DNA from: Rhizobium sp. CC-YZS058
Lineage (GTDB): Bacteria > Pseudomonadota > Alphaproteobacteria > Rhizobiales > Rhizobiaceae
Direction: 5' to 3'
DNA: 64,000 nt
Assembly (NCBI RefSeq): GCF_034720595.1
Contig: NZ_JAYESJ010000001.1
Coordinates: forward strand, 2,134,001 to 2,198,000
Part shown: in pieces, positions 13,957 to 18,621 of the stretch
Position numbering within the stretch: the stretch's first letter is position 1
How the letters are laid out: each line of letters starts with the position of its first letter
Program-made: the position numbers and the translations under genes
The notes under the pieces: generated by a model
What the model was told of the DNA's origin: nothing
Databases searched by the model: none
Seen by the model: only the letters and a program-made list of their open reading frames with translations

Positions 13957-14618
13957 TGCATCTCGTCCTCTTCGATTGCGACGGCACGCTGGTCGACAGC
14001 GCGGCGCTGATCAACGAGACCATGGCCCGCACGTTCCGCGCCTTCGGCCTTACCCCGCCGAGCCTGTCCGAGACCAAGTCGATCATCGGCCTAACCCTCG
14101 ATATCGCCATCGCAAAGCTCAAAGCCTCGCCGCATGTGGACGATGAGGCGATCGCGATGACGGCCCATTACAAGAGCATCTATGCGGCCGTGCGGGCAGA
14201 CGGATTCATCGAGCCGCTCTTTTCCGGCATCGCGCCGATGATGGCGACGCTCGAGCAGGATCAACGCTGCGTGCTCGGTGCCGTCACCGGCAAGTCGCGC
14301 CGCGGGCTTGTGATGATCGAGACCAGCCATGGGATGGAACGGAGCTTCCGCGTCAGCCGCACGGCGGATGATTGCCCCTCCAAGCCGCACCCGGCCATGG
14401 TCAGCGAATGCTGCGCCGAAGCCGGCATTTTGCCCGGGCGAACGGTTGTTATCGGCGATGCGGTTTACGATATGCAGATGGCCAAAGCCGCGGGTGCGCT
14501 GGCTGTCGGCGTCGCCTGGGGATATGCCCCGGTGGACTCCCTGGTTGCCGCCGGCGCCGACCGGATCGTGCGCGACCCGCAAGAGATCCTCGACATGCTG
14601 GAGACCCTGCATGACTGA
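13956..14618 (+). CDS. HAD-family phosphatase (phosphoglycolate-phosphatase-like)
   Basis: 220 residues, HAD subfamily IA. Motif I is FDCDGTLVD (nucleophile Asp7, acid/base Asp9), motif II in GAVTGKSRRG, motif III lysine in CPSKPHPAM, motif IV IGDAVYDMQMAKAAG. A helical cap spans about 15-80. Substrate is uncertain. Overlaps rluC by one base and the following ATP12 gene by eight bases, so the three form a tight operon. Confidence 0.88.
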   Translation: MHLVLFDCDGTLVDSAALINETMARTFRAFGLTPPSLSETKSIIGLTLDIAIAKLKASPHVDDEAIAMTAHYKSIYAAVRADGFIEPLFSGIAPMMATLEQDQRCVLGAVTGKSRRGLVMIETSHGMERSFRVSRTADDCPSKPHPAMVSECCAEAGILPGRTVVIGDAVYDMQMAKAAGALAVGVAWGYAPVDSLVAAGADRIVRDPQEILDMLETLHD

Positions 14619-15396
14619 TATACGCGATGAGCTCGCCAATGCCTTCAGCGATCCCGACCCGGTGCGCCGGGCCCAAATCCAGATGCTGAAGCCGCTGCCG
14701 AAGCGCTTCTACAAAGATGTGACCGTGGGCCGGGACGAGACTGGCGCCCACCAGATCCTGCTCGACGGGCGCAGCGTGCGCACGCCGGCACGCCAGCCGC
14801 TGACCGTGCCGACGGCAAGCCTGGCCGAGCTGGTCGCGGAGGAATGGCGCGCCCAGGCCGAGGTGATCGATCCCGGCGCGATGCCGGTGACCCGGCTCGT
14901 CAACACGGCGCTCGACGGCGTTGCCAAGGATGTGCGCGGCGTCTTCGACGATATCCTCGCCTTCTCGGGCACCGACATGCTCTGCTACCGCGCCGCCGAG
15001 CCCGAGGGCCTGGTAGAGCGGCAGACGGGCCGCTGGGATCCGGTCCTGCGCTGGGCGGCGGAAACCCATGGCGCCCGCTTCATCCTGGCGGAAGGCATCA
15101 TGCACCAAGCCCAGCCGCGCCCGGCAATCGACGCCTTCGCCGAAGCGCTGCGCGCCTATGCGACCCCACTCGGCCTTGCCTGCCTCCATGCCATGACCAC
15201 GCTCACCGGCTCCGCCATCCTGGCGCTCGCCGTCGCCGACGCTCGCCTCTCCGCCGAGGAGGCCTGGTCGCTCGCCCATCTCGACGAAGACTGGCAGATC
15301 GAGCACTGGGGCACCGACGAAGAAGCCTTCCAGCGACGCGAAGCCCGCTGGAAGGACATGCAGGCCGCAGCAAAGGTGCTGGGCACGCTGCGGTAA
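14611..15396 (+). CDS. ATP12-family F1-ATPase assembly chaperone
   Basis: 261 residues. Matches the ATP12 pattern: KRFYKDVTVGRDETGAHQIL, LLDGRSVRTPARQPLTVPT, VAEEWRAQ, MPVTRLVNTALDGV, and a C-terminal helical part with HLDEDWQIEHWGTDEEA. In mitochondria Atp12 protects the alpha subunit before F1 assembly; the alphaproteobacterial homologue is presumed to act likewise. Begins at ATG 14611 inside the end of the phosphatase gene. Confidence 0.9.
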   Translation: MTDIRDELANAFSDPDPVRRAQIQMLKPLPKRFYKDVTVGRDETGAHQILLDGRSVRTPARQPLTVPTASLAELVAEEWRAQAEVIDPGAMPVTRLVNTALDGVAKDVRGVFDDILAFSGTDMLCYRAAEPEGLVERQTGRWDPVLRWAAETHGARFILAEGIMHQAQPRPAIDAFAEALRAYATPLGLACLHAMTTLTGSAILALAVADARLSAEEAWSLAHLDEDWQIEHWGTDEEAFQRREARWKDMQAAAKVLGTLR

Positions 15397-15548: not shown

Positions 15549-16695
15549 ATGTGCCCATCTTCTCTCTCGAAGCAGGCTGCCGCCCTTGATGCAGCTTTCG
15601 ATCAAGCTCTGGCTGAGCAGCGTCTCGTCGGCGCTGTTGTCATCGTCTCGCGCCACGGCGAGATTGTCTACTGCAGAGCCGGTGGCTATGCAGACCGGGA
15701 GGCTGGCTTGGCCATGCGCGAGGATGCAGTTTTTCGTCTTGCGTCGATCACGAAACCGATCGTTTCTGCCGCGGCGATGCGGCTTGTCGAAAAAGGGACC
15801 ATCACCCTCGATGAGCCGATCACGCGCTGGCTGCCGGGCTTTCGTCCGCGTCTGCAAGATGGCTCTTCTCCTGAAATCACCATCGCCCACCTGCTAACCC
15901 ACTCATCTGGGCTGAGCTATAGGCTCTCTGAGTTCGAAGGCAGTGACTACCACAGGCTGAACGTATCGGATGGGATGGAGCAACCCGGCTTGTCCCTCGC
16001 TGAGAATCTCGAAAGAATTGGAAGCACGACCCTGCGATTCCGTCCCGGCAAAGGGTGGCGATATTCTCTAGCACTCGATGTGCTCGGCGGCGTCCTGGAG
16101 AAGGCGACAGGTCATGCGCTCTCGGAACTTGTTCGAGAGCATGTGACAGAGCCGTTGGAAATGTTCGAAACCGGCTTTTCGGTGAGAGACCCCTCGCGGC
16201 TTGTTACACCTTACGTCAACCGAAGCGACGGACCGGAGAGGATGCAGGACGGAACGATCGTCACCCTCCCGACGATGACGTTGAGTTTCTGGCCCAGCTG
16301 GATCTTTGGTGCCAACTCCTATGAGTCGGGGGGGAGGAGGAATGGTCGGCACCGCAGGTGACATTCTCACCTTCTTGGACGTCATTCGAGCTGGCGGCCA
16401 GCCGATCCTCTCCACGGACACCGTGTCTCAGATGACGCATAACCACGTTGGACTCGAGGCCGAGACGCAAGGCCCTGGTTGGGGTTTCGGATACGGATGG
16501 GCAGTGCTCTGTGATCCCACCGGAACCGGCACCCCGCAGGCGCGTGGAACACTGCAATGGGGCGGCGTGTACGGCCATCGTTGGTTTGTCGATTCCGCGA
16601 ATGGATTCTCCGTGGTCATCCTCAGCAACACGGCACCGGAAGGACTCGCAGGCGCCTTTCCGACGGCTGTTCGAGACGCGGTGTACGCTGTATAA
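15549..16695 (+). pseudogene. Serine hydrolase (beta-lactamase/class C-like), frameshifted
   Basis: Two adjacent frames together make one protein of about 380 residues. The first (15549-16361) carries the SxxK motif in LASITKP, the THSSGLSYR loop and the middle of the domain; the second frame (to 16695) resumes at GGMVGTAGDILTFLD and carries the C-terminal part with WGGVYGHRWFVD, the usual HxG-like region. They join in a run of seven G at about 16328-16334; deleting one G restores a continuous reading ...YESGGGGMVGTAGD. Either a recent frameshift, a phase-variable tract or a sequencing error. Start ATG has AGGAG upstream. Codon use is less GC-rich than the neighbours, hinting at later arrival. 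Confidence 0.82.
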
Positions 16696-17194: not shown

Positions 17195-17247
17195 GCGAGG
17201 CCGTCCCCGCGGGCGTTGCGCGTGATCGCGCCCGCGGCCGTCCGCGG
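17195..17247 (-). ncRNA. Guanidine-II (mini-ykkC) riboswitch
   Basis: On the minus strand two hairpins each carry an ACGG tetraloop flanked by GG/CC. P1 (17232-17247): CCGCGG-ACGG-CCGCGG, a perfect 6-bp stem. P2 (17195-17210): GCGGGG-ACGG-CCTCGC, six pairs including one G-U. The linker is 21 nt. Tandem hairpins with ACGR loops define mini-ykkC RNAs, which bind guanidinium and release a ribosome-binding site; here AAGGAG begins eight bases after P2 and leads directly into sugE. Confidence 0.88.
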
Positions 17248-17254
17248 TCCGTGT

Positions 17255-17283
17255 TTTATGCCACACCCGCCCCTGATCGGCAA
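17255..17283 (-). promoter_or_regulatory. Candidate promoter for the riboswitch-sugE transcript
   Basis: Minus-strand TTGCCG (17278-17283), spacer exactly 17 bases, CATAAA (17255-17260). The predicted start is a few bases before the first riboswitch hairpin. Confidence 0.55.
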
Positions 17284-17307: not shown

Positions 17308-18621
17308 TCAAGCGCCGCCGCGCTCCTTGCGAAGCTTCGACCACCAGTCGAGCCGCTTGCGAATCTCCCGCTCGAAACCGCGCTCCGGCGGATCGTAGAA
17401 GGTGCGGCGGCCCATCTTTTCGGGGAAGTAATCCTGGCCTGAGAAGGCGTCCGGCTCGTCATGGTCGTAGCGATAGCCGTCGCCATATCCCTCGCCCTTC
17501 ATCAGCTTGGTCGGCGCGTTAAGGATGTGCTTGGGCGGCAGCAGCGAGCCGTGTTCCTTGGCTGCGCGCAGTGCCGCCTTGTAGGCCGTGTAGACGCCGT
17601 TCGACTTCGGTGCGGTGGCCAGATAGACGCAGGCCTGGGCCAGCGCCAGTTCGCCCTCCGGGGAGCCGAGATAATCATAGGCATCCTTGGCGGCATTGCA
17701 GATGACGAGCGCCTGCGGATCGGCAAGCCCGATATCTTCGACCGCCATGCGCACCAGCCGCCGCCCGAGATACAGCGGGTCCTCGCCGGCGTCGAACATG
17801 CGGCAGAGATAATAGAGGGCGGCGTCCGGATCAGAGCCGCGGACCGACTTATGCAGCGCCGAGATCAGATTGTAATGGCCGTCCTGGCTCTTGTCATAAA
17901 CCGGGGCGCGGCGCTGGACGATCTCCTGCAAGGCCGCTGCATTGAAAATCTCCTTCGTGCGGGCGGCACGCCAGACCTCCTCCGCAAGCGTCAGCGCGGC
18001 GCGTCCGTCGCCATCCGCCATGCGGATCAGGCTGGCGCGCGCCTCGTCGTCCAGCGGCAGCGCCCTGCCCTCGGCTGCCTCCGCGCGGGCCAGCAGCTCG
18101 CGCAGGCTCTGTTCGTCATGGGCGCGGAAGGTGAGAACGCGGGCGCGGGAGAGAAGCGCGGCGTTGAGCTCGAAGGACGGGTTCTCCGTGGTGGCCCCGA
18201 CCAGGATGATCGTGCCGTCCTCCATCACAGGCAGAAAGCTGTCCTGCTGGGCGCGGTTGAAGCGGTGGATCTCGTCGACGAACAGCAGCGTCTGGCGGCC
18301 GGACATGCGCCGTGCGCGCGCGCCTTCGAAAACCTTCTTCAGATCGGCGACGCCGGAGAAGATGGCCGAGATCTGTTCGAAGGCGAGTCCGGTTTCGCCC
18401 GACAGCAGCCGCGCGACCGTTGTCTTGCCGGTGCCGGGCGGGCCCCAGAAGATCATCGAGCCGAGCGAGCCCGACTCGATCATTCGCCGAAGCGTGCCAT
18501 CCTCGCCGGTCAAATGCGGCTGGCCGGTTACCTCGCCGAGCGTCTTCGGCCGCAGCCGGTCGGCCAGCGGCCGCTTCGCCTCCATGGCCGGCGGCTCATG
18601 CGGGGCGAAGAGATCGCTCAT
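17308..18621 (-). CDS. rarA: Replication-associated recombination protein A (RarA/MgsA)
   Basis: 437 residues. AAA+ ATPase related to clamp loaders: ADRLRPKTLGEVTGQ opening, Walker A GPPGTGKTT, Walker B LLFVDEIHRFN, sensor 1 VGATTENPSF, then the MgsA C-terminal tetramerisation domain (from about 260, with SALHKSVRGSDPDAALYYL). Acts at stalled replication forks. Its ATG overlaps the stop of the Do-type protease gene (ATGA), so the two are co-translated. Confidence 0.95.
   Translation of the reverse strand: MSDLFAPHEPPAMEAKRPLADRLRPKTLGEVTGQPHLTGEDGTLRRMIESGSLGSMIFWGPPGTGKTTVARLLSGETGLAFEQISAIFSGVADLKKVFEGARARRMSGRQTLLFVDEIHRFNRAQQDSFLPVMEDGTIILVGATTENPSFELNAALLSRARVLTFRAHDEQSLRELLARAEAAEGRALPLDDEARASLIRMADGDGRAALTLAEEVWRAARTKEIFNAAALQEIVQRRAPVYDKSQDGHYNLISALHKSVRGSDPDAALYYLCRMFDAGEDPLYLGRRLVRMAVEDIGLADPQALVICNAAKDAYDYLGSPEGELALAQACVYLATAPKSNGVYTAYKAALRAAKEHGSLLPPKHILNAPTKLMKGEGYGDGYRYDHDEPDAFSGQDYFPEKMGRRTFYDPPERGFEREIRKRLDWWSKLRKERGGA

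Follow-up and report, generated by a model that had tools for sequence, protein, structure and literature searches.

The leader of a sugE-type gene in Rhizobium sp. CC-YZS058 carries two hairpins with identical ACGG loops and a third hairpin between them, and raises the questions of whether the pair is a guanidine-II (mini-ykkC) riboswitch and what the hairpin in the linker does. We examined both in a 64,000-nucleotide stretch of this genome, referred to here as the window, and in the gdx leaders of its relatives. Computation yielded the hairpins, their conservation, the covariation of the linker hairpin, the association with gdx and the possibility of a hairpin that hides the Shine-Dalgarno sequence.

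The gdx leader and the guanidine-II class

All elements of the leader lie on the minus strand. A promoter-like site (TTGCCG at 17283-17278, a 17-nt spacer and CATAAA at 17260-17255) is followed by P1, the first predicted guanidine-binding hairpin (17247-17232; CCGCGG-ACGG-CCGCGG, 6 bp), a 21-nt linker (17231-17211) and P2, the second predicted guanidine-binding hairpin (17210-17195; GCGGGG-ACGG-CCUCGC, 6 bp including one G-U). The linker is made up of a hairpin, PL (17231-17218; GCGCG-AUCA-CGCGC), which is flush with P1 when P1 is taken as 6 bp, and of a 7-nt tail, AACGCCC (17217-17211), that joins PL to P2. A gap of 8 nt separates P2 from the Shine-Dalgarno sequence AAGGAG (17186-17181), and gdx, which by homology encodes a sugE-type SMR guanidinium exporter of 104 aa, occupies 17173-16859 with its ATG at 17173-17171. 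The initial annotation had described two minus-strand ACGG hairpins 21 nt apart, flanked by this promoter candidate and by the AAGGAG of a sugE-type gene; each base position agrees with the sequence, and both flanking elements are present as it stated. An upstream ORF, also on the minus strand, stops at 17308.

With the guanidine-II family RF01068 the leader shares two consecutive GC-rich hairpins whose ACGR tetraloops are closed by G-C, their position before the Shine-Dalgarno sequence of a gdx/sugE gene, that is, of a gene for guanidine transport or metabolism, and a linker within the range of 7-40 nt given in the accessible part of the published description (PMC7544219). It differs in having a linker composed of a flush hairpin and a 7-nt tail, in having ACGG in both loops, and in its score. 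RF01068 spans the site end to end at 23.2 bits (E 0.0079 when 261 bases were searched with 4227 Rfam families), under the gathering score of 32, which is a detection threshold and not a structural feature. At the gathering level Rfam has no entry for the site in the window, and RF01068 run over the window's own genome gave no match at E 0.001, nor at E 1 with strict filters. However, a covariance model built from 66 relatives with the window excluded, R2, scored the site at 46.0 bits in the 4.77-Mb genome (E 3.9e-5), with the runner-up at 17.3 bits, these E-values being rough. That R2 finds no other strong match in this genome argues for guanidine-II identity. The covariance-model check that had been proposed for this site therefore gave a divided answer, negative at the Rfam cut-off and positive with the model of the relatives.

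Leaders of 160-200 nt 5' of each gene were assembled from four sources: 30 loci out of 61 genomes, the best 80 of 568 relatives in named records, 22 further loci from 394 genomes of the family, and 80 extra leaders from the better-scoring matches in the family, less similar gdx copies being left out. Removal of 9 duplicates (last 110 nt identical) and of the leaders of 7 non-Gdx SMR genes reduced these 212 leaders to 196 gdx leaders. Tandem ACGR hairpins were found in 169 of the 196 by a rule-based count over these sampled loci, and were absent upstream of all 7 non-Gdx SMR genes, for most of which the true start is unfixed. The rule misses some leaders, since L168, L175 and L204, three of the 27 without a tandem pair by the rule, are still matched by RF01068 (39.0, 36.6 and 21.0 bits). 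The mini-ykkC identity and the gdx target claimed in the initial annotation are well supported by these counts, and the site is almost certainly a guanidine-II switch of gdx. The window leader presumably binds guanidine and is induced by it.

The gdx product belongs to the SMR family (Pfam SMR PF00893, 92.5 bits against a cut-off of 23.7). Its best NCBIfam match is SugE at 124.8 bits, 1.2 below the equivalog cut-off of 126, which is a score threshold and no feature of the protein; the second family reaches 73 bits. The best match among solved structures is Gdx-Clo (6wk5; E 1.6e-28, full-length), EmrE entries standing at 5e-7 or worse, and in the alignment to 6wk5 the window protein retains E13, W16, S42, Y59 and W62. 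The roles of the Gdx substrate residues are set out in the accessible part of PMC7695847, according to which W16 is conserved in Gdx and is G or A in Qac. The window protein, known by sequence alone, shares full-length similarity and the substrate residues with Gdx-Clo and the SMR guanidinium exporters, and it would be expected to export guanidinium.

Adjoining gdx on the plus strand (15549-16695) is a serine-hydrolase gene of the Pfam Beta-lactamase family (PF00144). It is split into two pieces that are read in different frames and overlap at 16306-16361, and it represents either a frameshifted gene or a sequencing error. In the sister species L002, L003 and L008, the DNA just beyond gdx resembles not this gene but the window's frame at 14329-15396, which we take to be ATP12-type.

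The linker hairpin in relatives

The initial annotation had mentioned that the linker can form a third hairpin, and had offered only that it might compete or stack. The hairpin at 17231-17218 does exist, and it is conserved and covarying. We called leaders hairpin-type when the linker folds with at least 4 bp, begins 0-2 nt past P1 and reaches -2.5 kcal/mol or better; 93 of the 169 tandem gdx leaders are hairpin-type by this rule and 76 are plain. Plain linkers measure 11-23 nt (median 15, IQR 14-18). Hairpin-type linkers total 16-41 nt, with an unpaired part of median 8 nt (IQR 8-9, range 1-15), and 53 of the 93 leaders have exactly 7 nt between PL and P2. Among linkers of at least 20 nt (n = 95), 88 have a flush hairpin and 77 a 6-9-nt tail, compared to 43.8 and 11.5 expected after shuffling; the 74 shorter linkers include 5 with a flush hairpin and 1 with such a tail (shuffled expectation 7.7 and 1.5).

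A scan that used only P1 and P2 as anchors, without folding, is a cleaner test of PL than an alignment. Over the 96 long linkers, those with 23 nt or more between the 4-bp arms, it returned a single register of four neighbouring offsets, each with 27-35% fully paired 4-mers and 50-67 unique pairs; 200 shuffles averaged 4-6% and peaked at 12-15%. Over 73 short linkers the best place reached 7%, inside the shuffle range.

Covariation was assessed in a MAFFT alignment, A1, which holds 67 of the 93 hairpin-type leaders and was scored against P1-PL-P2; it omits ten Pseudomonas leaders, aligned separately, and 16 others (distant genera, near-copies and some with unusual tails). For PL alone, with the window excluded and 65 distinct rows, 82.8% of cells are paired compared to 46.3% after shuffling, percentages that are inflated because the rows were chosen by predicted hairpin and are related. 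In the same rows 123 PL cells are changed on both sides (54 after shuffling), and the covariation score is 0.80, against 0.23 for shuffled rows and 0.20 or less when PL is slid by 1-3 columns. All five PL pairs change on both sides, a result that is uninformative alone, as it was reached in 499 of 500 shuffles. Three of the four P1 pairs vary on both sides in relatives, the ACG of both loops is invariant across the 67 rows, and RNAalifold given the alignment alone returns all three hairpins unprompted. The window's own PL sits one column off the family register in A1. In the Pseudomonas alignment (9 distinct rows), whose P1 and PL counts are usable, PL is paired in every row, and two of four pairs vary on both sides. 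We are highly confident that PL is real and selected. As a third guanidine-binding hairpin it was rejected, GACGRC occurring in just 4 of the 93 hairpin-type linkers.

The 65 tandem leaders within L133-L212 comprise 31 hairpin-type and 34 plain ones, of which 4 and 20, respectively, score high enough to pass the Rfam cut-off; of the remaining 104 tandem leaders, the window alone was scored singly against Rfam. We put the misses down to the departures in the linker and to the P1 closing pairs of many relatives. With 27 of the 31 scored hairpin-type leaders below the cut-off, these scores suggest that standard searches under-report rhizobial gdx riboswitches. The window site is of a known riboswitch kind, lies below the standard detection threshold and is a member of a three-hairpin variant.

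At E 0.01, R2 matches 62 of 394 genomes of the family, and many matches are expected by construction, since 65 of its 66 sources or their near-copies are family genomes. By-eye comparison placed 59 R2 matches directly upstream of gdx, four of them in plain-linker sister species; the matched genomes G367 and G187 lack a gdx match at 1e-20, and in G126 the gdx position is unlisted. R1, run over 289 genomes of the class, recovered the window's genome and one other, which says little on wider spread, as R1 includes the window, is tuned to Rhizobiaceae and was used with strict filters. A gdx gene is present in all seven genomes of the window's genus. Six sister species have 14-15-nt linkers, no PL and a P1 of GCGG-ACGA-CCGC, whereas the window has PL and ACGG in both loops; PL is therefore dispensable. 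These natural variants within one genus, with and without PL, offer material for asking whether P1 and P2 kiss intramolecularly. In the poorly resolved gdx tree (104 rows, 104 columns; 8 of 98 inner branches starred), the window Gdx groups with Sinorhizobium/Ensifer, away from its own genus. Linker type requires at least nine changes on this tree, compared to a shuffled mean of 33.9, and the starred branches force only two of them. All ten sampled Pseudomonas gdx leaders, P. aeruginosa not being among them, are hairpin-type, and their gdx genes form a group separate from the rhizobial ones, with no starred support.

The guanidine-II class has otherwise been studied as a minimal two-hairpin switch, and its linker is termed flexible or poorly conserved in the accessible parts of PMC7544219 and PMC9561414. 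The portions open to searching of PMC9300104, PMC7544219, PMC9561414, PMC12186494, PMC5486947, PMC9094411, PMC13064478, PMC12335538, PMC7266159, PMC9481103, PMC7736828 and PMC2864571 present the linker as short, flexible, poorly conserved or anti-SD, with no mention of a linker hairpin. We found no earlier description of the three-hairpin variant in the searchable literature; key papers on the class fall outside it, and earlier notice is possible. An updated guanidine-II consensus comprises 1977 representatives (PMC12335538, accessible part), and mini-ykkC in Mesorhizobium is already in print (PMC5596092, accessible part). In eight Mesorhizobium gdx leaders (L060, L062, L064, L065, L067, L069, L096 and L097), P2 lies 52-91 nt from the start codon and a long hairpin-like insert separates P2 from the Shine-Dalgarno sequence, so that the expression platform differs in these leaders.

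Predicted expression platform and possible roles of the linker hairpin

The minimum-energy fold of the window leader contains no aptamer hairpins. It places the Shine-Dalgarno sequence inside P3, a predicted OFF hairpin (17197-17179; CGCUUCUU-gca-AAGGAGCG) in which the end of the P2 3' arm (17197-17195) and UUCUU face the Shine-Dalgarno region, and it pairs the P1 3' arm and the PL 5' strand with the P2 5' arm. In the free leader the predicted probabilities are 0.26 for P1, 0.49 for PL and 0.01 for P2. Folded locally, P3 reaches -10.4 kcal/mol compared to a shuffled mean of -4.1 (p 0.005), a comparison that favours P3 because the P2 5' arm is omitted. Forcing P1 and P2 costs 3.5 kcal/mol and lifts the modelled probability that the Shine-Dalgarno core is unpaired from 0.00 to 0.31.

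Relatives were folded in the same manner. When P1 and P2 form, the Shine-Dalgarno sequence opens by more than 0.2 in 31 of 88 hairpin-type leaders and closes in 3 (medians 0.15 and 0.27), and in 61 plain leaders it goes up in 9 and down in 5 (medians 0.29 and 0.30); in these models the opening is partial and hardly visible in plain leaders. In local folds, 81 of 88 hairpin-type leaders and 49 of 61 plain ones pair the Shine-Dalgarno region with the P2 3' arm. The mean energies are -7.72 and -6.08, respectively, against -4.25 and -4.26 in shuffles that keep the arm and the Shine-Dalgarno sequence, and 37 of 88 and 16 of 61 local folds reach p 0.05 singly. Over the whole leader, the P2 3' arm pairs towards the Shine-Dalgarno sequence (more than 1.5 expected pairs) in 40 of 84 hairpin-type leaders, and P2 is formed in 47 of 84. 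On this modelling, P3 is a plausible and common OFF state but not a proven one. The G-U wobble of P2 (A1 columns 58 and 67) is found at the same spot in 47 of 66 distinct hairpin-type leaders, the window included, the site otherwise being G-C in 11 and A-U in 8; perhaps it tunes P2 against P3.

From these results we infer the ligand, the kissing of the loops, the direction of control and the role of PL. ON control through release of the Shine-Dalgarno sequence is likely, and the window leader most likely acts at translation, as an ON switch of guanidinium export. Without guanidinium, P2 would be open, and the end of its 3' arm together with UUCUU would pair with AAGGAG and mask the ribosome-binding site. 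Two guanidinium ions would bind the ACGG loops, the loops would kiss, and P1 and P2 would be held together with the site freed; Gdx would then be made and guanidinium pumped out. PL and its short tail would most likely be a rigid stand-in for about half of the usual ~14-nt linker, with PL setting the P1-P2 distance and preventing mispairing of the linker. We consider it very likely that the parts hold jointly, that is, a guanidine-II riboswitch turning gdx translation ON, with P3 as the OFF state and PL as a rigid linker substitute.

This model shares the translational ON mechanism and the gdx target with the E. coli gdx/sugE riboswitch. However, the E. coli linker of 13 nt holds the proposed anti-SD, according to the accessible part of PMC9300104, whereas the predicted anti-SD in the window is the P2 3' arm with UUCUU. 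We liken the predicted mode of control to that of the Pseudomonas aeruginosa switch, for which the available portion of PMC9561414 reports guanidine-dependent translation initiation by RelE cleavage and proposes a P0 helix formed from the 5' and 3' flanks. In the window, the transcript probably starts just 5' of P1 and would adjoin it. A CATA, TATA, AATA or CTAT word stands 5' of P1 in 62 of the 93 hairpin-type leaders and in 46 of the 76 plain ones (raw counts, unshuffled), mostly 16-21 nt ahead of the P1 loop and 19 nt ahead in the window. In Gloeobacter violaceus, the alternative stem that has been proposed overlaps the ribosome-binding site as well as P2, which is also the principle of P3, and the linker is 14 nt, compared to 21 nt with PL in the window (PMC5486947, accessible part).

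As for PL, we give an even chance to a role as spacer or preorganiser, in effect a ruler, over any other role. The ends of a hairpin stay about one helix width apart at any hairpin length, so PL plus 7-8 nt can replace a linker of ~14-15 nt, and the narrow length of the unpaired linker fits such a ruler. With the stems collinear, as they are in the kissing complex, a linker of 14 nt has to bridge ~49 Angstrom (PMC5486947, accessible part). PL may then be free in sequence and fixed in position, with ~8 unpaired nt kept as linker length varies, although we put this at somewhat below even. Equally tentative is our proposal that Rhizobiaceae, and perhaps independently the gdx leaders of Pseudomonas, have a three-hairpin guanidine-II form whose PL, as a ruler, might enable P1 and P2 of the same molecule to kiss. 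If this is true, the spacing rule would be evolutionary evidence for intramolecular kissing, which is debated experimentally, and the rigid linker may offset the weaker pairs between two ACGG loops. Since PL covaries and the unpaired length hardly changes, the linker becomes a testable structural element.

Alternatively, PL could act as an insulator that locks the linker away from an E. coli-like anti-SD role, the anti-SD having shifted 3' of P2. The E. coli model does place the anti-SD in the linker (PMC9300104 and PMC9094411, accessible parts), and the pairing of the Shine-Dalgarno region with the P2 3' arm in 81 of 88 hairpin-type leaders agrees with a shift. However, 49 of 61 plain leaders also use the P2 3' arm, so the shift needs no PL, and the frequent 7-nt tail is left unexplained; we think this role unlikely. 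We also doubt, somewhat more strongly, that PL belongs to the OFF state, with its 5' strand and the P1 3' arm making an anti-aptamer helix with the P2 5' arm that guanidine would break. Complementary segments for such a helix exist in the window, CCGCGGGC (17237-17230) and GCCCGCGG (17214-17207), and this cross helix appears together with P3 in the minimum-energy fold. However, of 84 hairpin-type leaders the window alone shows more than 2 expected pairs between the P1 3' and P2 5' arms, and PL forms in 57 of the 84 when they are folded free; we reject the cross pairing as an OFF state common to the family.

It is very improbable that the hairpins bind another guanidinium-like cation, e.g. methylguanidine or agmatine, rather than free guanidine. 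In favour of such a ligand, an A-U lies next to the loop-closing G-C of P1 in 66 of 93 hairpin-type leaders against 4 of 76 plain ones, and both loops are ACGG in 46 of the former and 8 of the latter (Fisher p 5e-8, a statistic that ignores ancestry). However, these counts follow lineages and are therefore not independent; the ACGR loops, the G-C closure and the gdx partner are all unchanged, and the window has the usual GG..CC closure. Promoter-adjacent inverted repeats can be operators, but to read the palindromes as operators in DNA or as stems of a terminator, rather than as parts of an RNA aptamer, is barely credible, and both readings are out, because pairing of the PL arms persists while their sequence varies, ACG is invariant in both loops of the 67 aligned rows, and TTTT is absent from the 12 nt 5' of the P2 loop in 93 of 93 hairpin-type leaders.

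Other tandem ACGR pairs

Six loci (L215-L220, in G375, G247, G105, G387, G334 and G261) scored over the RF01068 cut-off away from the hairpin-type gdx leader. These are short-linker tandem ACGR hairpins upstream of an atpB-like gene (F0 ATP synthase subunit a), a call based on an HMM for L216 and on a similar N-terminus for L215 and L217-L219, the coding part of L220 being truncated. A short ORF stands between the hairpins and the atpB-like gene in L218. The only atpB of the window's genome at E 1e-20 is 63% identical to the atpB-like gene and has no tandem pair. The terms 'guanidine-II' and 'ATP synthase' occur together in one paper (PMC12342949, accessible part). In L218 (84-132) and L220 (67-118) a further tandem ACGR pair lies upstream of a neighbour of the atpB-like gene that resembles cation/proton exchangers, the exchanger being recognized in L220 by the ChaA and CaCA families, below their curated cut-offs, and in L218 by sequence similarity. 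Finally, tandem ACGR hairpins lie upstream of PACE-family efflux genes in L221 (80-130) and L222 (100-150), which score 136.2 and 128.5 bits against PACE NF033664 (cut-off 80) and come from G367 and G187, respectively, the two genomes without a gdx match at E 1e-20.
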